Source: Methylocapsa aurea
GTDB taxonomy: Bacteria; Pseudomonadota; Alphaproteobacteria; Rhizobiales; Beijerinckiaceae
Assembly: GCF_000746085.1 (NCBI RefSeq)
Contig: NZ_JQKO01000022.1
Span: forward strand, 1-49,923
Direction of reading: 5' to 3'
DNA: 49,923 nt
Shown: positions 13,115-29,263 of the stretch, piece after piece
Numbering within the stretch: the first letter of the stretch is position 1
How the letters are laid out: every line of letters starts with the position of its first letter
Translations under genes and position numbers: made by a program
The notes under the pieces: generated by a model
The model's input: only the letters and a program-made list of their open reading frames with translations
What the model was told of the DNA's origin: nothing
Database searches by the model: none

Positions 13115-13137
13115 CTGGCGGAGAGGGGGTCCGCCAG
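13115..13137. repeat. Distal attachment site, also a perfect hairpin
   Basis: Bases 13115-13127 (CTGGCGGAGAGGG) repeat the 3' end of the tRNA-Ser gene at 29251-29263. The same place forms an 8-bp hairpin, CTGGCGGA (13115-13122)/TCCGCCAG (13130-13137), which could end the TonB receptor transcript, although no T-run follows. An exact 13-base match placed precisely at the boundary between chromosomal and phage-type genes is unlikely by chance. Confidence 0.8.
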
Positions 13138-13279
13138 AAGTACGTCATAAGAAATTGATTTAGATACAGAAATAGAAATGCGCTATTTCAGCGTCCTAGT
13201 CATTATCCTAGTTAGATGGTCGGCGGCCCTTTCGCCGACTCGGCTTCCATGGAAATCGAGGCCGGTCGGCGCCGAGTTT

Positions 13280-13783
13280 TCAGACTTTGACATTCGACTT
13301 CTCCGGGTTTTGAAAAAGGAGGACCGCGCCCGTCTTGGTAAGCGCGTAGATGAGGGCCGGGACGGCGACGCCGAGGCCGATCGCCGGGTAGAGCAGCCAT
13401 CCTTCGGCATGCGCCGCAAAAGCGAGGGCGTTCATTCCCGCCGAGATGGCGAGGGTTCCGATGATCGCCGGCGCGGCGTAGCGCGCTGCGGCCGGCCGGA
13501 TCGCTGCCGGCGAGACGAGCATGGCGAGCTCGAGGACGACGAAGCCGACATCGATGCCTATGGCCATCAGCCAGCCGTCGCGCTCGCCCGAGCCCGTAAC
13601 CAGCGCGACGCCGGCGGCGAGATGCGACAGCGACAGGCCGACCAGGACCAGCGCGACGCACAAGACGCCGATCGCGGCCGCGACATGACGTCGGCGCCCG
13701 CGCCTCGAGGCGCGCGATGGCGAGGCCTCCCGCCTCGGCGCGCGGCGTGGAGGCTTTGTCTTTTCGAGACGGACGACGGTCAT
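13280..13783 (-). CDS. Four-span membrane protein of the element, unknown function
   Basis: 167 residues from the ATG at 13783, whose ATGA overlaps the stop of the upstream gene by four bases (translational coupling). The first ~35 residues are very basic (Arg/Pro/Lys), followed by about four hydrophobic segments (AAIGVLCVALVLVGLSL, DVGFVVLELAMLV, APAIIGTLAISAGMNALAF, PAIGLGVAVPALIYAL). Similar small membrane proteins occur in alphaproteobacterial prophages as far as I recall; no function is assigned. Last gene before the distal att site. Confidence 0.65.
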   Translation of the reverse strand: MTVVRLEKTKPPRRAPRREASPSRASRRGRRRHVAAAIGVLCVALVLVGLSLSHLAAGVALVTGSGERDGWLMAIGIDVGFVVLELAMLVSPAAIRPAAARYAAPAIIGTLAISAGMNALAFAAHAEGWLLYPAIGLGVAVPALIYALTKTGAVLLFQNPEKSNVKV

Positions 13784-14478
13784 GGGGCCGCTCCAACCGC
13801 TGCGCTTGTCACGGCCGGCGGCCATTCGGTCGCGAAATGCCAGCCGCCGCGCTTGTCGATCGGCGGCGATCGTCCGGTTGCGGCCCTGGCATAGGTCCAC
13901 CAGGCGTCGCCTTGCGGCGAATCGCGCCTGACCCAAATGCCTGTTGGAATGTCGGCCTTGCCGGCGCCCGGCGCGGCGACGCCTCGCGCGCGCTTGGTCT
14001 CGGCGTCACGCGCCATGAAGCGCCGAAGCTCGGCATGCCAGTCCGCGCGCCGCACGGCGTTCGCCGCCGCCCAAAGCTTCAAGTCCCGCGCGGACCTCGC
14101 AACCTCTCCCTCGGACAGCCCTTCGGCCTGGCCAAAGGCTCGATCTTCGGCGCAGGCTTCGAAATCGACGGGCAACCGGCCGGGCGCGGGCGCGCGCTCT
14201 CCCGAGGTAGGGGTTAGGAAAGGGGTTTGATTATATTCTTTGGGGGGAACCTCAGGGGAAGGAGGTAACGGGCCGTCACAGCGTGACGCGTGACGGAGGG
14301 CGCGTTTGCGCTCCCTGCAGCGCTGTTGCCGGAGCCTTGCGCCTTCACGAAGCCGCGCCAGGCGCTCTTCGCGCTCGCGCTCCCTTGCCTGCTCCAAGGC
14401 GGTCACGGCCGCCGCGATTTGCTCGCCGGAGCAGCCTTCGTCCAAAAGAGCGCGGGCGATCGGTCCGAAGATCCCCAT
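13780..14478 (-). CDS. Phage-type replication-associated protein (hypothetical)
   Basis: 232 residues. A charged Arg/Glu-rich helix lies near residues 30-60, then a Pro-rich linker, then a C-terminal module containing WAAANAVRRADWHAELRRFM and a terminal WVRRDSPQGDAWWTYARA...GGWHFATEWPP. This terminal pattern is typical of prophage proteins in the position of replication/DnaT-like genes. The function is not proven from sequence. It overlaps the next gene by four bases and lies 3 bases after the 228-aa gene, so the three form one leftward transcript. Confidence 0.6.
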   Translation of the reverse strand: MGIFGPIARALLDEGCSGEQIAAAVTALEQAREREREERLARLREGARLRQQRCRERKRALRHASRCDGPLPPSPEVPPKEYNQTPFLTPTSGERAPAPGRLPVDFEACAEDRAFGQAEGLSEGEVARSARDLKLWAAANAVRRADWHAELRRFMARDAETKRARGVAAPGAGKADIPTGIWVRRDSPQGDAWWTYARAATGRSPPIDKRGGWHFATEWPPAVTSAAVGAAP

Positions 14479-14481
14479 GGT

Positions 14482-15168
14482 TCAGCCCTCCGCCGTCGGC
14501 CGGCTGGCGAGGGAATGGAGCAGCGCCTCGATGCGCTCGCCTTCCATATCATCGAGGCGCTCTAGCAGATGTTTTGCCTTGGCCTGGATCTCCGCGATCG
14601 AAGCGCAGGGCCAGGCGCAGATTTGCAGGAGGATCGCGTCAGCCGCCTTCGACGCTTGTTCGGTCTGCGCCTCGGCTCTCGAATAGTCCGCCTTCTCTTT
14701 GGATGCCGCGACCTTGGCGGCGAGATCGTCGAAGGCTTTGAGGACGTCTTCGACATGCTCTTTCCAGAGGTCAAAGAACTTCCTGCGCATCGGCCCGAAA
14801 GAATGGTCCACCGCCCCGCAAAGCGATTGCTTATCGATCGCCAGCAGCCGAATCAGCTCGGCCCGGCTGCCGGCCGGGTCGTTGAGGTCACAGCGCCATT
14901 TCACTGGCCATTGGCGCGTGAAATCGACGGGGTTCTTGACATCCTTGAAGCGCAGAAAGGCCTCGTCTTCCTGTATGCAAGCGAGGCCATATGCTTCTTC
15001 GGCCGCGCGATGCGCTTCGAAGAGGTCTAGCAGCTCGGGCGAGACCGCCGGCGAGGCATGGGCCGCGTGAGCCAGCGCGCCAAAGACGGCGCCGGCCGAT
15101 CCGGCGGCAAGGAATAGGCGACGATTTGGCAAGCCGATAGCGCTTGCCGGAACGGGAAGGTTCGGCAT
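14482..15168 (-). CDS. Hypothetical element protein with Tat-like N-terminus
   Basis: 228 residues. The N-terminus NRRLFLAAGSAGAVFGALAH resembles a Tat-type signal but with RR-LFL after a neutral start, ending near AHAS. The remainder is helical and charged, with an acidic/Lys-rich coiled-coil-like region around residues 120-170. I do not recognise the family. It is divergent from the XRE gene at 15282, and the 113-base spacer between them holds operator-like inverted repeats. Confidence 0.6.
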   Translation of the reverse strand: MPNLPVPASAIGLPNRRLFLAAGSAGAVFGALAHAAHASPAVSPELLDLFEAHRAAEEAYGLACIQEDEAFLRFKDVKNPVDFTRQWPVKWRCDLNDPAGSRAELIRLLAIDKQSLCGAVDHSFGPMRRKFFDLWKEHVEDVLKAFDDLAAKVAASKEKADYSRAEAQTEQASKAADAILLQICAWPCASIAEIQAKAKHLLERLDDMEGERIEALLHSLASRPTAEG

Positions 15169-15218
15169 TTGGGTTGCTCCATTGACGGAAGCACTGCTTG
15201 TGCTATGAATTTATATCA

Positions 15219-15277
15219 GCGCTCTCTTTTTAAAGCCGATATATAAGAGCGTCAATCTCAATTTATAGCGGTGCTAT
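15219..15277. promoter_or_regulatory. Operator-like inverted repeats between divergent element genes
   Basis: Two symmetric motifs: CGCTCT (15220-15225)/AGAGCG (15246-15251), and ATAGC (15265-15269)/GCTAT (15273-15277). The second ends four bases before the XRE start codon, where no Shine-Dalgarno is visible. GCGCTCTC at 15219 and AGAGCGTCAA at 15246 recur in the same order at 22596 and 22617 in the other regulatory gap of the element. Confidence 0.5.
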
Positions 15278-15281
15278 TAAA

Positions 15282-15569
15282 ATGCTGGCGGTGCAGTGCA
15301 AGATGGCCAGAGTCGCGCTCGGGCTTGGTCTCCGGGAACTTGCAGAATTGGCTAAGGTGGCGCCGGCGACTATTTCCCGTCTCGAAGCGGGCGAGGAGCT
15401 GAAGCCGCGAACTATCGAAGCCATCCGCACTGCCCTCGAGGCGGCCGGCGTGATCTTCGTCGAAGAAAATGGCGAGGGGCCGGGCGTCAGGCTGAGGAAA
15501 GGCGGCGCCAAAGGCAACCAGGCCACAGCAATCCCGGTCGAGGATCTGAACGCCGAAAATGACGAGTGA
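15282..15569 (+). CDS. XRE-family HTH regulator, candidate element repressor
   Basis: 95 residues with a canonical XRE/Cro fold: LGLRELAELAKVAPATISRLEAGE forms helices 2 and 3, followed by TIEAIRTALEAAGVIFVEENGEGPGVRL, the usual tail of small phage-type repressors. It is the only plus-strand gene of the element, divergent from the 14482-15168 operon. That is the arrangement of a switch regulator controlling both directions. Autoregulation through the inverted repeats in its upstream gap is inference. Confidence 0.8.
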   Translation: MLAVQCKMARVALGLGLRELAELAKVAPATISRLEAGEELKPRTIEAIRTALEAAGVIFVEENGEGPGVRLRKGGAKGNQATAIPVEDLNAENDE

Positions 15570-15662
15570 AGCCCGCCGCCCTCGATCAACCGGCATCAAA
15601 TTCATCGCCGAGAACGGCGGCGCGAAACCAACCCAGCGAATCGGGAAATAGCCAAATCAAGA

Positions 15663-16742
15663 TTATGAAATCAATTTCAGCGTCCCATGACTTCGTGCGG
15701 GGCGTTCGCTTTCAGAGTCGGAAAGCATATTGGCTAGGCCAAACAGCAGATTTTCGATCTCCCGCTGTGGGACGCTCAATTGCTCGGCGATTTCTTTCTT
15801 CGTGACTTTTTCGTTCCAAAGCGCAGTCAACACCTTTTGCCACACGACAGATTGTTCGCGCCCAATTCCAAACGGCTCTGCGGTTCTGTAACCAACTTCA
15901 GTCGCTTGAATACAGAACATTCGATACTGCCAGTCTGATACTATATCCAACGAATGGAGCCGATGAATCATTGCCATAACAGACACGGACCAGCGTTTTT
16001 TTGCCTCAACGATCTGGTTGAGCGCATGAAGACGAGGCACTTTCGCAAGCACGTCGGCCGCCGGCATCAAAAATGAAGACGCAAACTGATCTGCTTGTTC
16101 TTCAGCTTTTCTTCCCTGCGGCCCTCCGTGCTTATGAAGCACGAGATGAGCAAGCTCATGGGCTGCGTCAAAGCGGCTGCGCTCTGGCGTCTTCATCATA
16201 TTCAGGAAGACAAATGGTCTTTCACCTCTCCACACAGAAAAAGCGTCGACTGTCTTTGTATTTTCGGCCAAAGAGAAAACGCGGATTCCCTTAGCTTCTA
16301 ATAGATGCACCATGTTTTTGATTGGCTGTTCGCCAAGCGTCCATTCTTGGCGAAGCGAGCGTGCAGCAACCTCAGGGCTTTCTCCAGATAGGTCAATAAG
16401 GTCCGGTTCTGGTAGTGCAAAATGCTCATCCACCCAATCTGACAAAGCGTAGGCAAGCGTTCCAGCAGCAAGCGCCGAATCTCGATCCTTGGCAGACATA
16501 GCGGTAAGGCTACGAAAACTCGCCGCGTCCGCCACAATCTCGTCCATGTCTGGCGCATGAAAAAAGGCGGCTGGAAAATCCAATAATTTTGCAATCTTTT
16601 CCACAACGTCATCAGGCGGCTCTATGTCTCCGCTTTCATAACGCAAAATAGTGTGAGGGGTAACGCCAAGCTCCTCGGCGAATGCTTTCTTGGTCAGTCC
16701 CCTCCGTCGACGAGCAAGGCTGAATCGTCCGGGCGTAAACAT
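15663..16742 (-). CDS. XRE-HTH / ImmA-IrrE-type metallopeptidase fusion
   Basis: 359 residues. An N-terminal HTH (SLARRRRGLTKKAFAEELGVTPHTILRYESG) is followed by an ImmA/IrrE (M78) domain with the zinc motif HELAHLVLHKHG and the downstream EEQADQFASSFLMP. Family members cleave repressors or act as regulators; COG2856-type fusions are often partners of toxin-like genes. It starts six bases after the stop of the unknown 16748-17392 gene, so the two are co-transcribed. Base composition is visibly less GC-rich than the chromosomal genes around the element, as expected for recently acquired cargo. Confidence 0.88.
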   Translation of the reverse strand: MFTPGRFSLARRRRGLTKKAFAEELGVTPHTILRYESGDIEPPDDVVEKIAKLLDFPAAFFHAPDMDEIVADAASFRSLTAMSAKDRDSALAAGTLAYALSDWVDEHFALPEPDLIDLSGESPEVAARSLRQEWTLGEQPIKNMVHLLEAKGIRVFSLAENTKTVDAFSVWRGERPFVFLNMMKTPERSRFDAAHELAHLVLHKHGGPQGRKAEEQADQFASSFLMPAADVLAKVPRLHALNQIVEAKKRWSVSVMAMIHRLHSLDIVSDWQYRMFCIQATEVGYRTAEPFGIGREQSVVWQKVLTALWNEKVTKKEIAEQLSVPQREIENLLFGLANMLSDSESERPARSHGTLKLIS

Positions 16743-16747
16743 GGCGC

Positions 16748-17392
16748 TTATTTCCGCCGAATGTTGATCTCAAAATCTTGACCGCCGTCTCTGCCGCCAT
16801 TTTCAGCGGGCGGCTCGATCGCAATCCGTTCCCATTCACCAGGCCGAAGAATCCATATTCTCTCGCTATAGCCGACGAAGTATCCAGACTTGAACTCGAT
16901 CGGGCGGGACAACTCGGCGCGCACTAATTGACCATCGTCGAAAACGCACAATTGCCAGAGGTCGAAGGCACCTTCCTTGATCGATTTTGGGTGTTCTTTT
17001 CGAAACAGCTCTAGCTGATTATTGAGATCGGTGATCTTTTCAGCCGCCGGACCTTTTAAGGTGCGATTTCTTGGGGAGCGGGACCGATCGCAGACGCCGA
17101 AGTCGGCATTCATCACTGTAATCTTCTTTCGGAAGTCGCGGTTGGCAATATGCTCCACGCCGTCATCGTCGCCAGCATCCCACCCCTCCCGGCAAAAGTT
17201 TTGGCGCATTCTGGTGATTCCCGCATCCCATGCGAAATAGCCGGGGGAAGCTTTTGGGTTGTGGTCCGTGCACGAACCGCGTGCGGCAACCATAGCCTTA
17301 ACGACTTCGATCCATTGATCGCGAGAAGAGTTGAAATACTGCGCGAGCCGCCGGTCGCATTCCCGAGGCGTTTCATGGATGATCGCGACCAT
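16748..17392 (-). CDS. Unknown protein, first gene of the XRE-ImmA operon
   Basis: 214 residues from the ATG at 17392 (MVAIIHETPREC), supported by GGAG about eight bases upstream; a TTG at 17419 would lie inside a palindrome and is less likely. The protein is soluble-looking with scattered Cys and Trp residues and a C-terminal beta-rich segment (FKSGYFVGYSERIWILRPGEWERIAIEPP). No family recognised. Its tight coupling to an XRE-ImmA gene, lower GC and neighbouring darTG suggest a toxin or defence effector, but this is inference. A 44-bp palindrome lies immediately upstream. Confidence 0.6.
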   Translation of the reverse strand: MVAIIHETPRECDRRLAQYFNSSRDQWIEVVKAMVAARGSCTDHNPKASPGYFAWDAGITRMRQNFCREGWDAGDDDGVEHIANRDFRKKITVMNADFGVCDRSRSPRNRTLKGPAAEKITDLNNQLELFRKEHPKSIKEGAFDLWQLCVFDDGQLVRAELSRPIEFKSGYFVGYSERIWILRPGEWERIAIEPPAENGGRDGGQDFEINIRRK

Positions 17393-17403
17393 TCCGAATC
17401 TCC

Positions 17404-17447
17404 GCGTAACTTTTTTCAATCACGAACGTGATATAAAAAAGTTACGC
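17404..17447. promoter_or_regulatory. 44-bp nested perfect palindrome, probable operator
   Basis: Outer arms GCGTAACTTTTTT (17404-17416) and AAAAAAGTTACGC (17435-17447) are 13 bases and perfectly complementary. Inside them ATCACG (17419-17424) and CGTGAT (17427-17432) form a second dyad. It lies just upstream of the ribosome binding site of the unknown/XRE-ImmA operon. No T-run follows either hairpin in either direction, so an operator (autoregulation by the XRE domain) is more likely than a terminator. Confidence 0.65.
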
Positions 17448-17600
17448 TGTCAAGCCGGCTCGCCTATTTCCCACGTTTTCGGCCACTGCTTTTTTCGCGA
17501 TCTCGGCGCGGCGCTCAGGCGGCATGCTCTTGGCCCGGGCTACGCCCTCTTTCTTGCCGAGCGCCTTTGCGGCGTTCTGTCGGTCGCGAGCTCGACGATC
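17442..17600 (-). pseudogene. Remnant of a small basic protein gene
   Basis: On the minus strand this frame encodes NAAKALGKKEGVARAKSM then PPERRAEIAKKAVAEN, ending at TAA (17442-17444). This resembles the short basic proteins with a GGxARAKxLxPERRxEIAxKAA pattern. The frame stays open upstream into the end of darG but offers no ATG, GTG or TTG start before the internal Met, and the usual ARW-type C-terminus is missing. It looks like a fragment cut off by the insertion of darTG, or by the palindrome on its other side. Confidence 0.4.
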
Positions 17601-17638
17601 ATGATGGCTGTACGGGAAGCGCTCGCTCTTAGTGCCCT

Positions 17639-18727
17639 TTAGGCACCGCAGGTCTCCGCAGACGCTCCAAAGGAATTCAACCGATCAAGAGCCAATTCGA
17701 TGAGGCGGTCATCGAAGAGTCCCTGTTTCCGTTCAGCGGCTTTTTGGCCTCCGGCCCAGGCGTTAAGGCCAATGCGGATGGCATTTCGCGCAGGCGCAAC
17801 ACCCTCTTTGTAAACGAGCCAGTCTAAAGTCGCCAACAATTCCATGCCGAGAGGCGACTCAAATCCGTCGATGAGCTTTGCCGTTAATTGCAAAGCGGGC
17901 TGATATGTTTTCGCATCCCCGGACATCAAATAGACACCAACCTTGTCTTTCTTTGCATCGTCGAACCAAATAACATCGAATGGGCTTGCGTCTCCCAATC
18001 GTTTATCGCAATGCAGATAGCTGCCATCCAAGCCATTTAGAAGATGTGTCAGCCTCGGGGCATAAGGACCATACCTGTCCGCCTCGAAGCGCAGATCGAG
18101 CGGATTCTTCAAACCAAGAATTTCTATACTTCGTTCCAAAAAGTATGAGAGCTTTTGGACCTCCAGTAGAGAGCACTCGATCCCTAAAATCCAATAACGC
18201 CGCACAAGCTCAGCGACAAGGGCACGCGCTGGCGTTAGCTTCTCAACGCCAGTTCGTTTGGCAACGTTTTGATATTTAGTTGTCGGCTCATATACTAGAG
18301 CTCGAACCGGCCGGGCGGCGAGCGCCGTCTCGATCTTCTGTCGAACATCGCTCCAATTCAGCCCGCCGTTCCCACTTCCCAATGGAGGAATTGCAATTGA
18401 GCGAATGCCTTTTTCAGTAATCACGCGCTTCAAATCCTCCAATCCCGCCTCAATCCATTCCATTTTCGACGGATTGCGCCAGTGCTCCTTTGTCGGAAAA
18501 TTGATAATGAATTTTGGGCCAATTAGATGTGCTCTCTCGGTCACAAACATACGCCCGACCCGAATCTCTTTTCGCTTGCAGGCCTTTTCGTACTCTCTGA
18601 AGTTCTCCGGAAACGTCTCCTTGAACATGAGCGCAACGCCTTTGCCCATCACGCCAACAGTGTTGACTGTGTTCACGAGCGCCTCTACGTCTGCTTCTAG
18701 CAGATTGCCTGTTGTAAATTCGATCAT
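17639..18727 (-). CDS. darG: DarG-type antitoxin: macrodomain ADP-ribosylglycohydrolase
   Basis: DarG removes the ADP-ribose that DarT attaches to thymidine in single-stranded DNA. The first ~155 residues are a macrodomain: GNLLEADVEALVNTVNTVG, MGKGVALMFKETFP, and the phosphate-binding IPPLGSGNGGLNW. The C-terminal half (about 165-350) contains LLEVQKLSYFLE and LRFEADRYGPYAPRL, which fits the conserved C-terminal region of DarG proteins. Its start overlaps the darT stop by four bases (ATGA), the standard toxin-antitoxin order. Lower GC than the flanking chromosome. As cargo of a satellite-like element it most likely acts in phage defence or element maintenance. Confidence 0.92.
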   Translation of the reverse strand: MIEFTTGNLLEADVEALVNTVNTVGVMGKGVALMFKETFPENFREYEKACKRKEIRVGRMFVTERAHLIGPKFIINFPTKEHWRNPSKMEWIEAGLEDLKRVITEKGIRSIAIPPLGSGNGGLNWSDVRQKIETALAARPVRALVYEPTTKYQNVAKRTGVEKLTPARALVAELVRRYWILGIECSLLEVQKLSYFLERSIEILGLKNPLDLRFEADRYGPYAPRLTHLLNGLDGSYLHCDKRLGDASPFDVIWFDDAKKDKVGVYLMSGDAKTYQPALQLTAKLIDGFESPLGMELLATLDWLVYKEGVAPARNAIRIGLNAWAGGQKAAERKQGLFDDRLIELALDRLNSFGASAETCGA

Positions 18728-19368
18728 CCGAAATACCAGTCCGACTTCTTTAAAACTTTGAGGGTTATACCTCGCTTCGTCAGAGCTTGCTCGAAGGTTA
18801 CTTTTACTTCATCACTATAGCTCACGAGCCCCCGGAGTCTATCGATTGGCAAGTGTTTATATACCAATGCCTCAGCTTGATATCTCTCTATCTTTGACGG
18901 ATCTTCCGGGTCAGCCTTGAAATCTCGACGCTCAAGCATCGCCCAGTCGATTTGATCGAGGCGCGCAAGATCGGAATAAAATTGGGCGGCGACAAGATAA
19001 GCGTGCCGGTCGGTAAACAAGAACGGGATATTGCGATTTTTCAGATCGTGGAGCGATGCGACCATTATTGCGATTTCGTTATTGCTGCGCTTTCGGATGC
19101 CACCCCAGCCAGTCGCGATATTGAGGAGCATCGGTGAAAACGGGGTAAAATAGAATGGAATATAGTCGCTTAGAGTTCCCCCCGGCGACTTCGGAACGGG
19201 ATGGTAGTTCCGCTTGCTGATCAAATCGGGATTCCCGATCTCTACATAGCTCGGGTCGGCCATGCTCGAGTTTCGACAATGAAGCCCATGATCGAGAATC
19301 CACGGCACATTGTCCCGGTGTACGATCCGGAAAATCAGCGCTTTACGAGGATTGAGGTCTCTTGACAT
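18724..19368 (-). CDS. darT: DarT-type toxin: ssDNA thymidine ADP-ribosyltransferase (DUF4433)
   Basis: DarT uses NAD+ to ADP-ribosylate thymidine bases in single-stranded DNA, blocking replication, and in several bacteria protects against phage. Visible family features in 214 residues are the N-terminal RIVHRDNVPWILDHGLHC, an SKRNYHPVP loop holding the likely NAD-binding Arg (R53), the YIPFYFTPFSPML block, TDRHAYL, and YQAEALV with the presumed catalytic Glu (E166). Both key residues are present, so it appears intact. Nearby upstream sequence carries two CTTAGC copies 12 bases apart (19409 and 19421). Confidence 0.93.
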   Translation of the reverse strand: MSRDLNPRKALIFRIVHRDNVPWILDHGLHCRNSSMADPSYVEIGNPDLISKRNYHPVPKSPGGTLSDYIPFYFTPFSPMLLNIATGWGGIRKRSNNEIAIMVASLHDLKNRNIPFLFTDRHAYLVAAQFYSDLARLDQIDWAMLERRDFKADPEDPSKIERYQAEALVYKHLPIDRLRGLVSYSDEVKVTFEQALTKRGITLKVLKKSDWYFG

Positions 19369-19518
19369 ACCAGCGCCGAATCACTCGCGTGACGCCCAAG
19401 CGTTAATGCTTAGCGGCATACTTAGCAACCCAACCCTGCCGTTGTCCCCGTTAGTGTTTTCCAGCGCCATAATCCATATGTGCACAAACCACGAACATAA
19501 AGTCAAGCGTGGCCGGCC

Positions 19519-19716
19519 TCAGTCACCGCCCCGCCGTCCGGTGCGGCCGTTGTTGCTCGACCGCAGTTCGCCACCGGCGCGGCGCAGCTGCGCGACCTTC
19601 GCAAGGATCGCCTTTGGGCTTGTGCGGAATCTCTCGGCGAGCGCGCCGGAACTGAAGCCGGCATTCCAGGCCGCGGCGAGCCGCTTTTCGGCGTCCGCTG
19701 TCCATCTGATCTTCAT
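19519..19716 (-). CDS. Small GcrA/Myb-like HTH protein
   Basis: 65 residues, MKIRWTADAEKRLAAAWNAG followed by FSSGALAERFRTSPKAILAKVAQLRR and a basic, low-complexity tail. The W...AAW spacing and the following HTH resemble the N-terminal DNA-binding part of GcrA-like alphaproteobacterial proteins, often found as small orphan genes in prophages. Probably a DNA-binding regulator. It is downstream of the capsid gene on the same strand. Confidence 0.6.
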   Translation of the reverse strand: MKIRWTADAEKRLAAAWNAGFSSGALAERFRTSPKAILAKVAQLRRAGGELRSSNNGRTGRRGGD

Positions 19717-20053
19717 GCGACTGCCCTTCGATGCTTTTGCCGAGCTGCCGGTCCAAACGATGGCCGCTTGGGGCGGTAAGCCGCGCTCGAACGCCGATGC
19801 TGCGCCTGGCAATCGGAGCGGCGCCGGCAGTCTCCGGGAAGAGCGGACCGAAGGCGGGGGGAGCCTCCGCATAGAGGCGCAAGCTCCCCACACTCGCGGC
19901 CTCGCTTTGCAGCTCGCTGGCGGCCTCGGCCAGCGCCGAGAGGCATGGCGCAAAGGCCGAATAGAACGGCGCGGCGACCCGAAAGGAATGCCGCCGCGCC
20001 GTCAACGCCGAAGACTGGGAGCTCGCCACACCCAGGCAGCCCCTCGGCGTCAT
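19523..20053 (-). CDS. Doubtful hypothetical gene after the capsid gene
   Basis: Between the capsid gene and the small HTH gene, one minus-strand frame has the most coding-like third positions and reads FRVAAPFYSAFAPCLSALAE then AASELQSEAASVGSLRLYAE. It then runs on into the HTH gene in a different frame. A competing frame (19713-20063) ends with an ATGA overlap on the HTH start. I cannot decide which is real, or whether a frameshift joined or broke a gene. No function recognised. Confidence 0.3.
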   Translation of the reverse strand: MTPRGCLGVASSQSSALTARRHSFRVAAPFYSAFAPCLSALAEAASELQSEAASVGSLRLYAEAPPAFGPLFPETAGAAPIARRSIGVRARLTAPSGHRLDRQLGKSIEGQSHEDQMDSGRRKAARRGLECRLQFRRARREIPHKPKGDPCEGRAAAPRRWRTAVEQQRPHRTAGR

Positions 20054-20107
20054 GACGCGCCATCGCCCGAGAACCTGCAAAACTCGGGTTCCGGCGCGCC
20101 AATTCGA

Positions 20108-22250: not shown

Positions 22251-22251
22251 C

Positions 22252-22482: not shown

Positions 22483-23060
22483 CGATGCAAGATAGCTCTT
22501 CAACAAAAATGCGCGCAAAGGCTAAAACTATGAAATATCGGCAACTTGTTTGTTGATGTTTGTCGGCAATACTTATCCACAGCTTTTCTTTGACGGCGCT
22601 CTCACGCCCTCTCACGAGAGCGTCAAGCGCGCGGGATGCAACCGAGTTGCGCATGCCGATGCTGAGTTTCCCTACCGCCCGACTCGCGGCGGATTTGTAG
22701 ACCAACGCGGCGCGGCAGTTCTCTACAAGGGAGCTACAGCGACGCCGCATCCGGACCGTTCGGCGCGCGATGTAAGCTGGCCCAGCGGCCAGGCGCAGGC
22801 GTTAGGCCGCCGCCGGCGATGGCATGGGAAGGAGGCGGAGCGGCGGGCCTCGCCCTGGCGAAGCAATCTGCACAGACAGCCAGCGCGGACGTCGAACCGC
22901 CGGCGATCGGCGAGGAGGCTCTCAGGACATCGTCGACGACGAAGACTTGGCGTCGATACATGGCCAGCGCCAAAACGATGCGCCCTCAGCGTCGCCGTAA
23001 GATCACGGTGAATTCCCTGCTTATTGAATTAAACGATCGGCACTGCCGATGATCCCTAGC
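22483..23060. promoter_or_regulatory. Regulatory gap upstream of the capsid operon, with DnaA-box-like site and dyad
   Basis: No credible gene in this stretch; short ORFs in it look random. It contains TTATCCACA (22573-22581), a perfect DnaA-box consensus, and the dyad CGCTCTC (22597-22603)/GAGAGCG (22616-22622). GCGCTCTC and AGAGCGTCAA here (22596, 22617) are the same words found in the 15219-15255 gap, suggesting a common regulator. The promoter of the 22482-to-19519 operon should lie here. Confidence 0.45.
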
Positions 23061-23090
23061 AAAAAAAAAGATTTTGCCGATATCGCGGCA
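23061..23090 (-). terminator. Probable rho-independent terminator, leftward
   Basis: On the minus strand, TGCCG/CGGCA (23075-23079 and 23086-23090) forms a short stem followed by AAATC and a run of nine T. The stem is only five pairs, so strength is uncertain. It would end the transcript of the 23174-23599 gene. Confidence 0.45.
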
Positions 23091-23173
23091 TTTTCCGCGT
23101 TCTTGAGGAACCGGTCTAAGGCGATCGGCTCTTAGAGTTTTGGTACCCCCCGGGGCACCCGACCTTTGCCGCC

Positions 23174-23599
23174 TCACCTCGGCCGGCCGATCCGATAGCC
23201 AATAGGTTCGACGGGAAGCCTCGCCAGTTCCGATTGAAGAGTGCGCCTGCAACAGAACGATCCGTGGATACCGCCACCGTTCGTTTGGAGCCAAGCGCCC
23301 GTCTCCCGCTCGAACCAGCCAAACGCGAAAGCGTCGCCAGCTCGGAACCCTGCGTTCGGGCAATCGTAAAACCTGCCGGTAGGATTGACGGCGACGCTCA
23401 TCTGAACCTCGCCATAGCCTACGTCATGCACCGCGCCGAGCGCCCGATAGCCGCCGATCGAGAATAGGATCGCGATCGAGGACTCGACCGTCCCCAGGCC
23501 GCCGCATCGCGATTTTCTGAATTCGAAGAGACCAGCGCGGAGCGCTTCGTTGGCGCCGGCGACCATCACATTGCGCCATGCCGCAGACTTTGCAGACAT
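23174..23599 (-). CDS. Hypothetical element protein
   Basis: 141 residues from MSAKSAAWRNVMVAG. The frame stays open upstream to 23725, but that extension is partly the translation of iteron repeats, so I prefer the shorter form. An intermediate start that would include FRCKSCWDAALKICKGK cannot be excluded. The body has a Gly/aromatic-rich, possibly beta-rich sequence (GGYRALGAVHDVGYGEVQMS; AFAFGWFERETGAWLQTNGG) and several cysteines. No family recognised. It lies immediately past the iteron array. Confidence 0.45.
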   Translation of the reverse strand: MSAKSAAWRNVMVAGANEALRAGLFEFRKSRCGGLGTVESSIAILFSIGGYRALGAVHDVGYGEVQMSVAVNPTGRFYDCPNAGFRAGDAFAFGWFERETGAWLQTNGGGIHGSFCCRRTLQSELARLPVEPIGYRIGRPR

Positions 23600-23679
23600 G
23601 GGCTTCGTCGTCTTGCCTTTGCATATTTTCAAAGCAGCATCCCAACAGGACTTACATCTAAATTCGCTGGGTCTTGGCC

Positions 23680-23964
23680 ATCCTCCCGGAAACGGGAGGA
23701 TGACGGGAGGGTTCGGGAGGATCAAAACTTTAAGAATGATCCATAAGGGTTTGATATAAAATCAAACGGGAGGATCACTTAAAAACGGGAGGATAAATAC
23801 ATATGAGATTTATATGCGGGCGCGCGCGCATGCGCACATGTGACGCGGTCAATGCACAAAATCCTCCCGTTTTGATTTTATCCTCCCGTTCGCTGTAATA
23901 TCAGGCACTTGCGCAAGGGCGCATCCTCCCGCGATCCTCCCGCATCCTCCCGAAACGGGAGGAT
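23680..23964. repeat. Iteron array (CGGGAGGAT, both orientations), probable replication origin
   Basis: Twelve copies of CGGGAGGAT or its complement ATCCTCCCG, eleven of them perfect: 23680, 23693, 23704 (one mismatch), 23714, 23767, 23786, 23861, 23880, 23923, 23934, 23944 and 23956. The outer ones include facing pairs (23680/23693 and 23944/23956). Between them are A+T-rich stretches and a TTTGAT/ATCAAA dyad (23750-23755/23761-23766). This is the layout of a P4-like origin: iterons flanking an easily melted region, directly beside the primase/helicase gene. Confidence 0.85.
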
Positions 23965-23967
23965 CAC

Positions 23968-25650
23968 TCACGTCGATCCGTCAAAATCGTAGCCATCCTG
24001 TTCTCTCTCGCCGCAACGCGGGTTGCCGGAGTCGTCGACGAAGTCGGTCACGCCTTTCGTGAGCTCGATATCGAGCCAGTAGACGTTCACGGATTTCTTC
24101 GCCGCGATGCCGCGCTCCTTTAGGGCTGCGCCAAATCCCTTCGCTGACCATGCAGTCTCGCCATTGACTTTCGCCCAAGCGACGAAGAGCGCGTGCATGT
24201 TCGTCGCTTGCACCCGCTGGCCGATCGCCTGGCGCGTGCAGGCGTCTAGGAAGCGCCCCAGCGGATCGCTGTCTGATCGGTAGTCATTCGTCGCCGCCGC
24301 CACGCTGCCGGGGATGCAGAGCCCTTTGTCGAGCCATGCGCAGAGCCCGTCGAGGAGACGGTTCAGGATGCCCGAGGCCTCGCCTCGCAACGTTTCAGCA
24401 AGCTTCGGATCGCGCTTTTCCGGCGGGAAGAAGACTCCCCAAGGCACAAGCACAAGGCGGTTCCAAATGCCTTCATCCGCGCCCATGACCTTGGGCCGAT
24501 AGTTGCCTTGCATGGTGAGCTTGGCTTGCGGCACGAAGGCGAAGAAATCCTTGTTCAGATGGCGCGCCTTGATCACGTCGCCGCCCGAAAAAAGCTTGAT
24601 CAGGCCTTCGTCCAAGGTCGCGCCTTTTTTCGGCTCCGACGTCGTCAGCATGCGCACGCCGGGCAGATCGGCAAGGTCTGGCGTCGCCTGGCCGCCAGCG
24701 CGCGCCCGCCCGCTATCGAGAAAGCTCTCGATTGGGATTGAGTCGGCGTAGTCGCCGGCGACATAGGAAATCGTGTTGACCCAGACGCTCTTGCCGTTGC
24801 GGCCTTTGCCATAGTGGAACGTGATCTTTTGCTCGCTCGTGTCGCCGGTCAGGGAAAGCCCCGCCCATTGATCGAGAAAGCGCTGCACGTCGCGGCCGCC
24901 CGCCTCATCCGGCGGCTGCACCTCGTCCATGAACAGATCGAAGCGCGGGCACGTCGCCGCCGGGTCATAGGCGACCGGCGAAATCTTCGTGATGTAATCG
25001 GCCGGATCGTGCGGATGGAGCTCGACATAAGGCCCGTCGTCGCGCTTTGCGACCTGCAGCGTGCCATTCGCGACGCTGATTTTCATTTTGTCCGCGTCGA
25101 GCTCGTCGACGGCGATCGCGAGCATGGCGGCCGCGCGTTTTGAGATCGACCCCATGCGGTTCGCCGATTCCGAGACGCGGCCCCAAGCCTTGATCTTGTC
25201 GGAATACAAGACTTCCTTGCCGCGCGCGTCCTTGACGAGGAAATCCTCAGGCGCATCGCGCAAGGCTTTCGCCTCGTCCTGGATTGCGCGCACGGTCGCA
25301 TGTTCGCGGAGCTTGACGATCTCTTCCGATCCGCCGTGCGCCCAACGCTTGCCGTCCCAAGAGAGCCAGCCGATGTCCGGGCAATAGCGCAGCCCGCTTC
25401 CATGGCGCTCCGCGAAGCGCTCGGCATTGCCGAGATCGGTCAAGGGGAAATGCGCAAGGCGGCGGTCAATATCCGCGGGGTGTTCGCCGCCGCTTTTTCC
25501 TCCGCCGGAAGCGGACGTTTCGCGCGATCCTCCCGCCCGGGAGGATGCCTCTTCCCCGCTCCGCGGGCGGGCGGCGATCGAGGCTTTCCCAGGAAATGCG
25601 AGGACCTCCCCGCTTTCGATGATCGGCGTGATATCGTCGGAAGAGGTCAA
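23968..25650 (-). CDS. P4-type phage/plasmid primase-helicase, C-terminal (D5-like helicase) protein
   Basis: 560 residues if translation starts at the TTG (25650) whose TTGA overlaps the stop of the upstream primase gene; the longer frame to 25824 would be translated from within that gene. It has a D5_N-like region (CPRFDLFMDEV), a superfamily 3 helicase Walker A GKGRNGKS (~281-288), SSEP-like TTSEPKKGATLDEGLIK, SGGDVIKARHLNKDFFAFVP and MQGNYRPKV, and a C-terminal winged region. It would bind the iterons just downstream, melt DNA and unwind it for replication of the excised element. Together with the Zn/Toprim gene it corresponds to P4 alpha split in two. Confidence 0.9.
   Translation of the reverse strand: MTSSDDITPIIESGEVLAFPGKASIAARPRSGEEASSRAGGSRETSASGGGKSGGEHPADIDRRLAHFPLTDLGNAERFAERHGSGLRYCPDIGWLSWDGKRWAHGGSEEIVKLREHATVRAIQDEAKALRDAPEDFLVKDARGKEVLYSDKIKAWGRVSESANRMGSISKRAAAMLAIAVDELDADKMKISVANGTLQVAKRDDGPYVELHPHDPADYITKISPVAYDPAATCPRFDLFMDEVQPPDEAGGRDVQRFLDQWAGLSLTGDTSEQKITFHYGKGRNGKSVWVNTISYVAGDYADSIPIESFLDSGRARAGGQATPDLADLPGVRMLTTSEPKKGATLDEGLIKLFSGGDVIKARHLNKDFFAFVPQAKLTMQGNYRPKVMGADEGIWNRLVLVPWGVFFPPEKRDPKLAETLRGEASGILNRLLDGLCAWLDKGLCIPGSVAAATNDYRSDSDPLGRFLDACTRQAIGQRVQATNMHALFVAWAKVNGETAWSAKGFGAALKERGIAAKKSVNVYWLDIELTKGVTDFVDDSGNPRCGEREQDGYDFDGST
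25527..25546. repeat. Extra facing iteron pair inside the helicase gene
   Basis: ATCCTCCCG (25527-25535) and CGGGAGGAT (25538-25546) face each other two bases apart, within the coding sequence near the N-terminus of the helicase. They match the main array about 1.6 kb away, like the second cis-acting region of P4-type replicons. Confidence 0.7.
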
Positions 25651-26948
25651 GCGGCCGCCCCGCCGCTTTTCATGGCGAGCCACATATCGTTGAAGTCGGC
25701 GCCGGGCTTCGCCATTGAGAGCCGGATCATCAGATGCGGGTGTGCGCGCGAAAACCGCTTGCCCGCCCGCTCGAGCGCGAGGCGCGTGAACACAGGCTCG
25801 CTGTCGCCGTCGCCCAAAAGCCAAAGATCCTCGACGCTTTCGGCGATCGGGATCAAGGGGAAATCGGGATCATCCTTCGGCTCGCTGTTTGGCACGAAGA
25901 CGGGCCGCACGCGCCCGAGCCTATCGGTCTGCGTCCTGGTCGGATGCCGGACCCGCGCGACGGCTTTGCCAGCCAGATTGCCGAGGTCTATCGAGGTCCT
26001 AAACTCCGCGCCCTGCAACAGCTTGGATCGGGACGCCTTCAGTGCGCAAAAGACCGAAAGAACGGTCTCGATTCCCTCGCCGAGGAAAAGCCGCCGCACG
26101 CCCGCCCGATCGCCGGGAAAGTCACTATCAAACCCACCTTTGACCAATAGGATCGATCCACCCTTGACCGATCCTCGCGTCTTTTTCGCCGGCAGGATTT
26201 CGCCTGTCTCGGGATGGACGATCAGCGCCTTGCCTTTCGGCTGATCGAGGTCGATCCATAGCCGCTGCACGCCGGAAAACTTGCCATTTGCGCCTTCGAT
26301 GGCCGCCAGGATCGCCGCGCCCGAGTGGATGATCTTTCCGCCCTGATCTTTCGGGCGATCCCATAAAGGCGCCGCCGGATGAAACCGCAGCCGCGCGCCA
26401 GGCGGAGCCTCGACGCCGCGCAAGCTCAAATAGGCTTCCGCCGGCGTGCCGGCGATCGGCGCGGCCGCCGTCCAAAGCTGCCACGCTGCCCGGCGCTCGC
26501 GCTCGCGAAATCGCCGCGCCGAATCGGCGTCATCCTGTTCACGGCGATGGCGATCGGCTCGCGCCATGTCGACGGCGTATTCGCGCATGCGCCGCGCGTC
26601 ATCGCTTTCGGTCGATCCGCGGCCGGGCGGAGGCTCGCCAAGAATGGTCTCCACCGCGACGAGAAAGTTGGACCCGTCCAGATATTCCGCGAGCGCGATG
26701 GCGTCGCCGCCCATCCCCGAGGCGCGGCAATGCCAGACATCCTTTCGAAGATTGACCGCAAAGCGATCAGCGCCGCCACAACGAGGGCAAGGCACGCCGG
26801 CGTCGCCAAGCATCGCGCGCGACCAAAGCCCGCGCCGCTCCAACTCGCCGCGCACTGTGAAGGCTCTAGCGCGTGAGAGCCAATCCTCGAAAGCCGGGTC
26901 GTGCGCGCGCATGGCTGTTGATCGCGAGCGCTCGATTTCGACTGACAA
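25647..26948 (-). CDS. Primase: CHC2-type zinc finger plus Toprim domain
   Basis: 433 residues from a TTG at 26948; an ATG at 26912 is the alternative. The N-terminal zinc finger has CPRCGGADRF (C54, C57) and WHC (H73, C74), as in DnaG/P4-type primases. A central charged helical linker leads to the Toprim-like module with LFLGEGIETVLSVF, the acidic metal-binding motif, followed by a domain ending in KPGADFNDMW. It synthesises primers for element replication. Its stop overlaps the start of the helicase gene, so the two chains are coupled and probably form one primase-helicase complex. Confidence 0.85.
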   Translation of the reverse strand: MSVEIERSRSTAMRAHDPAFEDWLSRARAFTVRGELERRGLWSRAMLGDAGVPCPRCGGADRFAVNLRKDVWHCRASGMGGDAIALAEYLDGSNFLVAVETILGEPPPGRGSTESDDARRMREYAVDMARADRHRREQDDADSARRFRERERRAAWQLWTAAAPIAGTPAEAYLSLRGVEAPPGARLRFHPAAPLWDRPKDQGGKIIHSGAAILAAIEGANGKFSGVQRLWIDLDQPKGKALIVHPETGEILPAKKTRGSVKGGSILLVKGGFDSDFPGDRAGVRRLFLGEGIETVLSVFCALKASRSKLLQGAEFRTSIDLGNLAGKAVARVRHPTRTQTDRLGRVRPVFVPNSEPKDDPDFPLIPIAESVEDLWLLGDGDSEPVFTRLALERAGKRFSRAHPHLMIRLSMAKPGADFNDMWLAMKSGGAAA

Positions 26949-26949
26949 G

Positions 26950-27162
26950 TCAGACGGCCTTTGCGTCGCCGCCCGTTTGACGCAAATTCAGAAACCTAGC
27001 GATTTCAGGCGCGCTAAAAATCGTCCGGTGACCGATCCGGATTGGTCTCAACTCGCCTTTGTTAACAAGAGTGTAGAGTGTGTTGCGCCCGATAGATAAA
27101 AGCTTGAGCGTCTCACCAACGCTGTATGTCGGATTTTTGAGGCCATAGTCCTCCGCGGTCAT
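26950..27162 (-). CDS. AlpA-like excisionase/HTH regulator
   Basis: 70 residues. TYSVGETLKLLSIGRNTLYT followed by LVNKGELRPIRIGHRTIFSAPEIARFL is the classical AlpA/HTH_17 winged HTH. AAGGAG precedes the ATG. In P4-like elements AlpA activates integrase expression or assists excision. It stops just upstream of the primase start, forming one operon. Confidence 0.85.
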   Translation of the reverse strand: MTAEDYGLKNPTYSVGETLKLLSIGRNTLYTLVNKGELRPIRIGHRTIFSAPEIARFLNLRQTGGDAKAV

Positions 27163-27184
27163 CTTTGGCTCCTTCCATTATTAA

Positions 27185-27202
27185 ACAATATACATGCATT
27201 GT
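27185..27202. promoter_or_regulatory. Dyad in the AlpA promoter region
   Basis: ACAAT (27185-27189) and ATTGT (27198-27202) are symmetric within an A+T-rich 60-base gap upstream of the AlpA-like gene. It could bind the MerR-like regulator encoded next door, or the AlpA-like protein itself. Weak evidence. Confidence 0.3.
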
Positions 27203-27222
27203 GTATTAAGCACATAAAAACC

Positions 27223-27819
27223 TCATCCTTGTTTCGGCTCAACCAAAGGTGTTAAGGCAGCGCTCAGGTTCAATACAATGGACCATTGCTTTGCAATAAC
27301 GTTTACAGGGAATTCAACGGATACCTTTCCCCACTCCTCAATATCTTTCATTTCACCATTAATCATTACCGGCCATATTTCTGGTTTTTTCAATTCATCT
27401 AAGGAATTAGCCTGTAGTAGACTTGCCCAGCCGATTTTACCGTGATCATCAATAAAAAGCACGACTACCTCGTACTTTCCCAGCAAAGCGCGGCCAACTG
27501 GCGTCATATTCATGTATTTTGACCAACCGCAGGGCGGCTCTTCTTGCGCATCATGTACCCCGCGAAACCAATCAATAAAATCCTTTATATCTGCAAATGG
27601 GATATGAGTTTTCTTCAGAGCCGACGCCAACAAAGCCCAAGTTCGCTCTCCATACATGGGCGCAGACGCTGGGAATTCTCTGAAGTGCCCCCGCCCCTTT
27701 CTGCGCGTCACGGGATTTGGACGCAGAATGCCCATATCGCACCAAAACTGAAGAGTGCGCACGGATTCGCCAGTATCTTCGACGAGATCGCCAATCCCAA
27801 CGATTTCCTTCACGCGCAT
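27223..27819 (-). CDS. MerR-like transcription regulator
   Basis: 198 residues from the ATG at 27819 (a TTG two codons earlier is also possible). GIGDLVEDTGESVRTLQFWC then DMGILRPNPVTRRKGRGHFREF is a MerR-type winged HTH (HTH, then the wing with G.GHxR.F). The C-terminal ~120 residues are not a known effector domain I can name. Base composition is noticeably more A+T-rich than neighbours. It lies between integrase and AlpA, a place where satellites keep a regulator of excision and replication. Confidence 0.7.
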   Translation of the reverse strand: MRVKEIVGIGDLVEDTGESVRTLQFWCDMGILRPNPVTRRKGRGHFREFPASAPMYGERTWALLASALKKTHIPFADIKDFIDWFRGVHDAQEEPPCGWSKYMNMTPVGRALLGKYEVVVLFIDDHGKIGWASLLQANSLDELKKPEIWPVMINGEMKDIEEWGKVSVEFPVNVIAKQWSIVLNLSAALTPLVEPKQG

Positions 27820-27904
27820 CCCCAAAATTTATCTCTCTAAACAGCTATAAACAATAAACAGTCTTTGTGTCAACTCGCGATGTCGCCGTTAATCACACGC
27901 GATC

Positions 27905-29104
27905 TCACCTACGATCATCACGCCGTTCCATCCCCTCACAAAACGCCGCCCATTCCTCCATGAGCGCCCGGCGCTTTTCGAGCGCGTCGCCGCGCCGGTA
28001 GGCTTGCTCTGCTTTGTCGCCAATGACGTGCGCGAGCGCCGCCTCGGCGAGCTCGCGCGGAAAGTGCGTTTCTTCGCCGGCCCAGTCGCGGAAGGCGGAG
28101 CGGAAGCCATGGACGGTCACGCCTTCGACCTTCATGCGTCGAAGCGTCATTTCCATCGCCATGTTGGAGAGCGGCTTCCCGCGTCTCTGACCCGCAAAGA
28201 CGAATTCACCCATTCGCGCTTCGGAGAGCTTTTCAATAATCGTCAGAGCTTGGCTCGGCAGCGGAACCCGATGCTCTCGCGCGGCTTTCATCCGAGCGGC
28301 CGGAACGGTCCATATCTTGGCGTCGACGTCGATTTCGGACCATCGGGCGCCGAGCACTTCTCCGCTGCGCGCCGCCGTCAGAATCGCAAATTCAAGGGCG
28401 AGCGCCCCCATGCCTTCTGTTTCGCGAAGCCGCGTCAAAAAGGTCGGCAAATCGCGATAGGGCATTGCCGCATGATGGCCGCGCGAGAGCTTCGCAGGAC
28501 GAGGCAACATCATTTCGAGGTGTCCCGTCCAACGAGCGGGATTTGGCGCTCGATCGTCGATCTGACCCGCAACGCGGGCCGAATCGATCACGGCCTCTAT
28601 TCGTCCGCGAAGGCGCGAGGCGGTCTCGGGCTTGGTCCGCCAAATCGGTTGAAGGGCCTTGAGAATGTCTTGCGTCGATACGTCCGCGACGGCGATCGGC
28701 CGCAAGGTCGCAGCATACCGCTGCAACGTCATCTTCCATTGCGCCCGGTGCTTTTCATTGCGCCAGCCGCTCTCTTTCGAGGCGACAAAAGTATCGGCGC
28801 ACTCGCCAAAGGTGAGGCGCGCGGCGTTCGCGCGCCGTTCGGCTGCTCGCGCGTCGAGCGGATCAATTCCTTTGACAAGAGATTCACGCATTCTGCCGGC
28901 GAGCTCGCGCGCCTGCGCCAAGGACACAATATCCCGCGAACCAAGCCCAGCTTCGCGCTGGCGTCCACCGCGCGCCCACATAAAAACCCAGCTGGCGGCG
29001 CCCGAGGCGTCGACGCGAAGATAGAGATTTCCGCCGTCCGCGTGGCGGCCTGGCTTCGTCACGCTCGCGCAGAACCGCGCGGTGAGCCGATGGAGCTTCG
29101 CCAC
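27905..29104 (-). CDS. int: P4-type tyrosine-recombinase integrase
   Basis: 399 residues from a GTG start with GAGG six bases upstream. The N-terminal arm-binding DUF4102-like domain contains DGGNLYLRVDASGAASWVF; the catalytic domain has TAARSGEV (R246), HGFRSAFRDW (H332, R335), H359 and the nucleophile Y369 in AEQAYRRGD. All catalytic residues are present, so it appears functional. It sits next to the 3' end of tRNA-Ser and is transcribed away from it, as is usual for P4-type elements that target tRNA genes. Confidence 0.94.
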   Translation of the reverse strand: MAKLHRLTARFCASVTKPGRHADGGNLYLRVDASGAASWVFMWARGGRQREAGLGSRDIVSLAQARELAGRMRESLVKGIDPLDARAAERRANAARLTFGECADTFVASKESGWRNEKHRAQWKMTLQRYAATLRPIAVADVSTQDILKALQPIWRTKPETASRLRGRIEAVIDSARVAGQIDDRAPNPARWTGHLEMMLPRPAKLSRGHHAAMPYRDLPTFLTRLRETEGMGALALEFAILTAARSGEVLGARWSEIDVDAKIWTVPAARMKAAREHRVPLPSQALTIIEKLSEARMGEFVFAGQRRGKPLSNMAMEMTLRRMKVEGVTVHGFRSAFRDWAGEETHFPRELAEAALAHVIGDKAEQAYRRGDALEKRRALMEEWAAFCEGMERRDDRR

Positions 29105-29113
29105 AAGAGCCTC

Positions 29114-29150
29114 GCCGTTCTTTCCTAGTGCTTTCCTAGTTCAGAACGGC
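29114..29150. promoter_or_regulatory. Symmetric repeat cluster upstream of integrase
   Basis: Two direct copies of TTTCCTAGT (29121-29129 and 29132-29140, 11-base period) lie inside an 8-bp inverted repeat GCCGTTCT (29114-29121)/AGAACGGC (29143-29150). The cluster begins ten bases before the integrase start codon and is ~100 bases from the att site. Likely integrase arm sites or an operator for integrase expression. Confidence 0.5.
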
Positions 29151-29250
29151 GCTTCAGGCAAATTGTGAGAAACATGAACAAACGAGAAATCCGTCAATGC
29201 ATTGATTTTTTGGGAGAAAATGACGTTGACAAATGCCGGCAAACAGGGCT

Positions 29251-29263
29251 CTGGCGGAGAGGG
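29251..29263. repeat. Proximal attachment site in the tRNA-Ser 3' end
   Basis: Thirteen bases (CTGGCGGAGAGGG) identical to 13115-13127, covering the last 12 bases of tRNA-Ser including CCA, plus one outside. The tRNA stays intact at this end, as is typical of integration at tRNA 3' ends. Confidence 0.8.

Follow-up and report, generated by a model that had tools for sequence, protein, structure and literature searches.

In the staphylococcal pathogenicity island SaPIbov5, a homologue of the phage capsid protein (Ccm) occupies the pentamers of the head and redirects the heads of phage phi12, and the island shares the cohesive-end packaging (cos) site of its helper, according to the sections on this island in PMC8569155 and PMC5052747. 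Other satellites have been described with some of the same traits: the capsid-forming members of the phage-inducible chromosomal islands (PICIs) make their own capsids, in the account given by PMC11389934, and P4 satellites have hotspots for defence genes, as outlined in PMC9122126. We describe here an element of 16,136 bp (positions 13115–29250, with one attachment-site (att) copy counted) in Methylocapsa aurea. The DNA analysed, called the window below, is 49,923 nt long and is an entire contig (NZ_JQKO01000022.1) of the 3.97-Mb genome. We interpret the element as a phage satellite of the cos type, resembling PICIs, with a capsid gene of its own and a cargo of defence genes, which would be packaged by a helper phage through a shared DNA block; we give this reading a probability of roughly 0.7.

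A preliminary description of the same DNA had proposed a satellite within these boundaries. Boundaries and satellite nature are both supported: by the direct repeats around a sister element and the corresponding empty site in another genome, by lone capsid genes in four genomes, by a block that in some related prophages precedes the gene for the small terminase subunit (terS), and by an origin with iterons. Beyond what that description covers are the defence cargo (DarTG and RosmerTA), the origin with its iterons, and the cos-like block. Comparisons were made with 15 genomes of the genus (14 besides the source genome, G000) and with 397 genomes of the family, referred to by their sample numbers.

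A capsid gene standing alone

The gene for an HK97-fold major capsid protein (MCP) lies at 20108–21385 on the minus strand (PF05065, 1.3e-59; also PHROG) and is full length, including the N-terminal region. Of 25 head and tail proteins from Bordetella PHB09, Halomonas H4907, and Pseudanabaena Pan4 used as probes, only capsid proteins matched the window (E ≤ 1e-3), in keeping with the earlier statement that terminase, portal, and tail genes are missing; homologues of terminase, portal, protease, and tail proteins were not seen in the window with this 25-probe search.

A search of the 397 family genomes (E ≤ 1e-50) found 19 capsid places. Fifteen have matches to the large terminase subunit (TerL) and to portal proteins nearby; in the other four (the window, G014, contig C37 of G007, and G009), all within this genus, the capsid gene is alone. 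In a second set of 17 capsid-bearing loci, which shares one (L063) with those fifteen, terminase and portal matches accompany the capsid gene in 15, and the remaining two (L086, L089) are viral contigs ending shortly upstream of it. Named genomes yielded a single match to the MCP, a Rhodocyclaceae contig with matches to the small terminase subunit (TerS), TerL, portal, and protease; viral contigs yielded six loci, at 33–44% identity. Among solved structures, searched by sequence, the best matches were capsid proteins of gene transfer agents.

A lone capsid gene might be no more than the chance survivor of a decayed prophage that has lost its terminase, portal, and tail genes. Homologues of the primase, D5 helicase, and MCP occur in prophages, and in an MCP tree the lone MCPs are interleaved with those of full phages rather than forming one clade, so that at least two changes are needed; the MCP of a complete prophage in G007 groups with three of them (100/99). 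Chance survival does not readily explain why the genes around the lone MCP keep one order in all four genomes (interrupted in G009 by ~25 kb), why the pre-terS block has been retained without terS, or why the sister element is precisely inserted, as the empty site in G002 indicates (both described below). The ratios of nonsynonymous to synonymous divergence (dN/dS) among three lone MCPs (window, G014, G007), calculated by NG86, are 0.39/1.56, 0.35/1.91, and 0.28/1.23, or 0.18–0.25, rough values because dS exceeds 1 and YN00 failed on the MCP pairs; they fit purifying selection on the lone MCP, which also argues against decay, though the setting in which that selection acted is considered below. 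Decay is on this evidence very improbable.

Upstream of the MCP gene, in the place of the ClpP-like protease of related phages, is orf192 (21454–22032, minus strand), found also in G014 and G007. Its predicted structure is all-helical, with a mean predicted local distance difference test score (pLDDT) of 76.1 and a predicted template-modelling score (pTM) of 0.44. No fold match reached E ≤ 0.001, and what the search returned were generic helical proteins; the idea of orf192 as a candidate scaffold is therefore a guess.

A block shared with complete prophages

Each of the four satellites has, between D5 and the capsid region, a block of ~94 bases with sharp edges (window 23061–23154, minus strand). 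It recurs in the full prophage of G007 (contig C33, designated G007:C33), at 82% identity to the G014 copy, 81% to the G007 satellite copy, and 70% to that of the window. In the prophage it overlaps the end of an HNH gene and stops 5–6 bases short of terS. A profile built from these five copies, which it matches by construction, was applied to 228 loci plus the window, and had further matches in G559 (E 1.6e-10), G561 (3.3e-10), G523 (1.6e-6), and weakly G476 (0.063), all in loci with terminase and portal matches. The terS open reading frame (ORF) begins 7 bases past the end of the block in G561 and 18 in G476; in G559 and G523, homology to terS begins 197 and 121 bases past it (from probe residues 55 and 46, respectively). 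A 34-base pattern based on the known copies (at most one mismatch) occurs at six places in five of the 397 genomes, one in each satellite and one each in the prophages of G007 and G561, with no further copies, and its reversed control has zero matches in the same genomes. One IMG/VR contig also matches the block; its proteins are identical, in the parts shown, to those of the G007 prophage.

Because it is otherwise found just upstream of terS in some related prophages, the block is probably a packaging (cos) site. It could instead be a regulatory site, a late promoter or regulator-binding sequence through which a helper switches the element on: in the three prophages measured the terS ORF lies 6, 7, and 18 bases past the block, so that the block could drive terS, and blastn of the block against known phages gave no match, so no mapped cos supports the packaging role. 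Regulation of terS fits less well with the G007 prophage copy, which covers the last part of the HNH gene together with the interval before terS; the region between these two genes is the usual position of cos in HK97-like phages. In the satellites, moreover, the block precedes orf192 by hundreds of bases and does not stand before a terS-like operon. A purely regulatory function is for these reasons considered unlikely.

Boundaries, target site, and related elements

The target is a tRNA-Ser(CGA) gene (29252–29341, minus strand), which is left intact. As reported earlier, a 13-bp direct repeat, CTGGCGGAGAGGG, is present at both ends, at 13115–13127 (far att) and 29251–29263 (near att). It had been described as the 3′ end of the tRNA, which is correct for 12 of its 13 bases, the other lying outside the gene; the far copy does closely follow the stop codon of the TonB receptor gene (13110), at a spacing of four bases rather than five. 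As to chance, five of 200 simulated Markov-1 windows contained, somewhere in their 49.9 kb, a 13-mer match to the 30-base tRNA end. Repeat length by itself is moderate evidence for the boundaries; position and the relatives are far stronger. There is no rival att repeat, CTGGCGGAGAGGG being the only match of at least 12 bases between the tRNA region (29230–29345) and the rest of the window, and the next-best matches are 11-mers at unrelated places. The far repeat extends into a longer att motif on the minus strand (13116–13137), 21 of whose 22 bases are identical to the far att of the G009 element at the same tRNA; the motif occurs once in the window, the pattern having been drawn from the compared sequences themselves. 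Beside it is its own inverted copy (CTGGCGGA / TCCGCCAG), an arrangement also seen in G009. The G+C content is 0.589 within the element, 0.643 in the left flank, and 0.621 in the right.

In ten same-genus genomes fetched, the right flank of tRNA-Ser(CGA) is conserved and its 3′ side is variable, different in each of the ten save for element sequence and remnants. Relatives of the integrase and D5 genes are at this tRNA in G009 and G007, with a primase relative in G009. The G009 element measures ~41 kb, with a 14-bp repeat at that distance, just beyond an orf232 homologue; ~25 kb of genes that look metabolic and regulatory (L090, L213, L077) separate its origin region from its capsid gene. The G007 sequence is split between contigs C24 (tRNA, integrase, D5) and C37 (end of D5 to orf232), which are probably one element at tRNA-Ser(CGA) since their ends overlap by 127 bases. 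G010 has, at the same tRNA, a 29-kb island (L081, L091) whose integrase shows 55% identity and which also has a 14-bp direct repeat; its far end resembles the far att of the window and G009. Beside the tRNA in G008 (L075, L092) there are a partial orf228 homologue and an XRE gene, and farther on a weak primase match and one near-full and one partial integrase copy, a pattern showing signs of repeated insertion at this site.

The sister element in G014 is at a different gene, tRNA-Ser(TGA); it is 15,422 bp long and is bounded by 15-bp direct repeats. Compared to the window, its integrase is 80% identical, primase 74%, D5 73%, MCP 59–62%, orf232 58–61%, and orf228 41%, with orf192 and orf228 less conserved than the MCP. 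The same tRNA-Ser(TGA) region is uninterrupted in G002 (97% identity upstream), where the tRNA is followed directly by the sequence from beyond the G014 far repeat (98.3% over 772 bp). By this comparison G002 has the empty site of the sister element, which shows its precise insertion. An uninterrupted tRNA-Ser(CGA) followed by the TonB receptor gene, which the preliminary description had proposed looking for in related genomes, was searched for there and not found. TonB homologues (E ≤ 1e-20) are present in three of the 14 other genus genomes (G011, G003, G013), all of them elsewhere.

A likely replication origin

The window contains 14 copies of CGGGAGGAT, against 0.85 expected, and 11 of these are within 285 bp directly 3′ of the D5 gene, as iterons in opposed groups. 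The arrangement is the same in G007 and G009, and the region (23680–23964) is likely the replication origin, with a layout that fits the Gram-negative PICI origin as it is outlined in PMC6092414. A GCGCGC-rich palindromic tract (23812–23839) separates the two opposed iteron sets. The neighbouring genes, both on the minus strand, encode a D5/P4-type primase-helicase (23968–25824; Pfam, PHROG) and a primase (25647–26948; PHROG primase, 4e-54) with a zinc finger and a Toprim-like region, both weak in Pfam.

Relatives of D5 at L167, L168, L173, L177, and L181 are within elements having terminase and portal genes, and the replication module seems, judging from such distributions, to move between phages and satellites. 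A scan of viral contigs with D5 found five distant relatives (28–34%); scans of viral contigs with DarG or an orf232 alignment found no match.

A cargo slot with defence genes

A slot lying between the capsid region and the end made up of XRE, orf228, and orf232 differs in content from element to element. In the window, it holds two toxin-antitoxin pairs on the minus strand with PADLOC matches over nearly their full length. The DarT toxin, a DNA ADP-ribosyltransferase (18724–19368; PF14487, 1.1e-52; PADLOC), adjoins the DarG antitoxin with its macro domain (17639–18727; PF01661; PADLOC DarG, 3.2e-123). DarTG acts in phage defence. The second pair comprises the RosmerTA toxin RmrT (16748–17419; PADLOC RmrT, 3.6e-35) and antitoxin RmrA (15663–16742; PF06114; PADLOC RmrA, 1.1e-149), which combines an XRE helix-turn-helix (HTH) with an ImmA/IrrE-like peptidase domain. 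RosmerTA is listed as a phage-defence toxin-antitoxin group in the relevant part of PMC10440598. In the same slot, G014 carries IetAS; G007 a DRT6-like reverse transcriptase and a type IIG-like methyltransferase; and G009 a D12 methyltransferase and a ParB-like gene, an unclear pair that is a defence-like candidate only.

Given that cargo of this kind, defence or defence-like, is present in all four elements, the element might be an integrative defence island, its MCP serving only for interference or sensing (as a dominant-negative subunit or a bait for abortive defence) and its block not used for packaging; Ccm alone lowered phi12 titres, by the account of that experiment in PMC5052747. Such an island would, however, have no evident need for a replication origin, superfluous to a passive element, and the block it shares with prophages sits there at terminase genes. 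We regard this as quite unlikely.

Candidate helper and proposed mechanism

G007 holds both a lone-capsid satellite and a full prophage. The prophage, G007:C33, has HNH, TerS, TerL, portal, ClpP-like protease, MCP, head-tail adaptor, tape measure, tail, and endolysin genes, and its MCP is 60% identical to that of the window, 68% to G014, 61% to the G007 satellite, and 46% to G009. A G007-like prophage contig in IMG/VR is 43,048 bp long. The source genome, G000, has two portal genes. One is in a cluster with homologues of portal, a distant capsid protein, and terminase (G000:C5:160000-179999, L220) that looks like a gene transfer agent; the other is at a contig edge, the start of G000:C16 (L203 / L221), and is perhaps part of another prophage. 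The head probes from the three phages had no match at E ≤ 1e-4 in the first 20 kb of G000:C16.

In the satellite reading, the integrase inserts the element into the 3′ end of tRNA-Ser(CGA), as comparison of the related genomes indicates. A growing helper phage would then bring about excision and replication from the iteron origin beside the element's own primase-helicase, and the helper's HNH, TerS, and TerL proteins would recognize the shared cos-like block and package satellite DNA. By analogy with Ccm of SaPIbov5, the satellite MCP may co-assemble with helper capsid subunits or replace them, and the resulting small or satellite-specific heads would take the helper's portal, protease, and tail, hindering the helper. 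Between helper encounters, the defence cargo (DarTG, RosmerTA) may pay the element's way.

A more specific version, tentative and on the whole doubtful, is that the satellite MCP builds the whole shell or mixes freely into it, unlike Ccm, on the helper's portal, protease, and tail; that the lineage re-acquires capsid genes from its helpers; and that orf192 sets head size as a scaffold. The first part is suggested by the MCP being complete and close to that of the candidate helper (60% for the window, 68% for G014). Re-acquisition is suggested by the interleaving of lone and phage MCPs in the tree and by the window and G014 MCPs being less conserved (59–62%) than the integrase and replication genes (73–80%), though orf192 and orf228 fall lower yet.

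Several observations weigh against the satellite reading. The window's block is only 70% like that of the G007 prophage, and the block was found in just five of 35 fetched loci with a TerL match. The empty site belongs to the sister element and not to that of the window. In the source genome no resident helper was seen, and the 34-base cos-like pattern is there once only. G014 is without the CGGGAGG iteron cluster, with only a few variants found by eye. In G009 the ~25-kb insert parts the block from the MCP gene, orf192 was not seen, and the copy may be inactive; its MCP is also a long branch in the tree, of unsure placement. The roughness of the dN/dS values has been noted, and pairs of lone and prophage MCPs have similar ratios (0.27–0.33); the selection on the MCP may, in part or entirely, have acted in phages. 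The window MCP, at 425 aa compared to 422 aa in the G007 prophage, has a delta domain that is not shortened, unlike that of Ccm; the only shorter lone MCP is that of G009 (373 aa). Packaging, head-size redirection, and the identity of the helper are inferred.

Other genes

The integrase, primase, D5-type helicase, AlpA-like HTH_17 gene, and HK97 capsid gene named in the preliminary description were all confirmed by Pfam and PHROG matches. Its MerR-like gene (27223–27825, minus strand; 67.5% identical in G009) is supported weakly, scoring just below the Pfam cut-off (21.5 bits vs. 21.6). The tyrosine integrase (Arm-DNA-bind_3 and Phage_integrase domains; Pfam, PHROG) is at 27905–29104 and the AlpA-like HTH_17 regulator or excisionase (Pfam, PHROG) at 22252–22518, both on the minus strand, as are all the named genes except one, an XRE-type HTH regulator (15282–15569, plus strand) whose position is conserved in the sister elements. 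Next to this, on the minus strand, are two conserved genes: orf228 (14482–15168), of no known family and 41% identical in G014, and orf232 (13780–14478), the terminal gene of the element family (58–61% in G014, 61% in G009). A putative ORF at 13280–13936 (minus strand) has hydrophobic stretches by eye and no family match. The minus-strand ORF at 19519–19953 has a weak match to a phage transcription regulator and a short conserved region (residues about 81–130), also found after the MCP gene in three sister elements. Well outside the element, near the left end of the window (549–1163), is a gene for a protein with two HTH_17-type stretches, close to a GH94 family gene. The host is a probable methanotroph, to judge by a gene in its genome for a methane/ammonia monooxygenase A-family protein.

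Comparison with known systems

Among better-known satellites, three groups share features with this element. Like P4-like satellites, as portrayed in PMC8628076 and PMC9122126, it has a P4-type integrase, an alpha-like helicase, an AlpA-like gene, a defence hotspot, and a cos-like site shared with its candidate helper, which is HK97-like and not P2-like as theirs are. The Pfam and PHROG libraries hold models for Psu, Sid, and delta. None of the three was found among the Pfam matches of 20 element ORFs or the PHROG matches of 10, and membership in the P4-like group was rejected on this basis. Capsid-forming PICIs carry their own terminase, portal, and protease genes. Membership in that group was likewise rejected, since the 25-probe search of the window found no terminase, portal, or protease; the likeness is that of a satellite with a capsid gene, as these are presented in PMC11389934.

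The fit to PICIs in general is partial, by gene content. Gram-negative PICIs, att-flanked islands like this one, are exemplified in PMC6092414 by PmCI172 and EcCICFT073. They too have an integrase, an AlpA-like protein, a primase, use of cos (here a cos-like block), and, 3′ of the replication gene, two sets of iterons as an origin, and these two also have a capsid homologue. The Gram-negative PICIs of that paper belong to the gammaproteobacteria; in the present element the primase and the helicase have a gene each, and defence pairs form the cargo. Gram-negative PICIs are further marked by transcription in a single direction, for which gene orientation here (minus strand throughout save one XRE gene) is the relevant observation, and by an attachment site that prophages do not use. 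Another mark is a set of genes exclusive to them, against which the occurrence of primase and D5 homologues in prophages counts.

The closest precedent, by analogy, is SaPIbov5. To the extent that it is characterized in PMC8569155 and PMC5052747, both are small islands in which no gene for terminase, portal, or tail was seen, and both have one HK97-fold capsid homologue that includes an N-terminal delta region, a cos or cos-like site common with helper phages, and a helper about three times larger. The differences are in degree of relatedness and in gene content. Three of the four lone MCPs are 60–68% identical to the MCP of the candidate helper (G009, 46%), compared to 24% for Ccm and the phi12 capsid protein; the delta region of the window MCP is not shortened, set beside Ccm as that is described; and there are primase/D5 and AlpA-like genes, with defence cargo in place of virulence genes.

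Among the matches listed in searches of open-licence papers, none described a satellite of this kind in Methylocystis-like bacteria. The varied cargo in one slot of this satellite family bears on the spread of defence systems, and G007, with a satellite and a full prophage that have related capsids and packaging-type blocks, offers a natural test pair. The combination of a lone capsid homologue and a shared packaging site is already described in staphylococci, with capsid homologues reported in gammaproteobacterial PICIs; the present element would extend this strategy to a probable alphaproteobacterial methanotroph.

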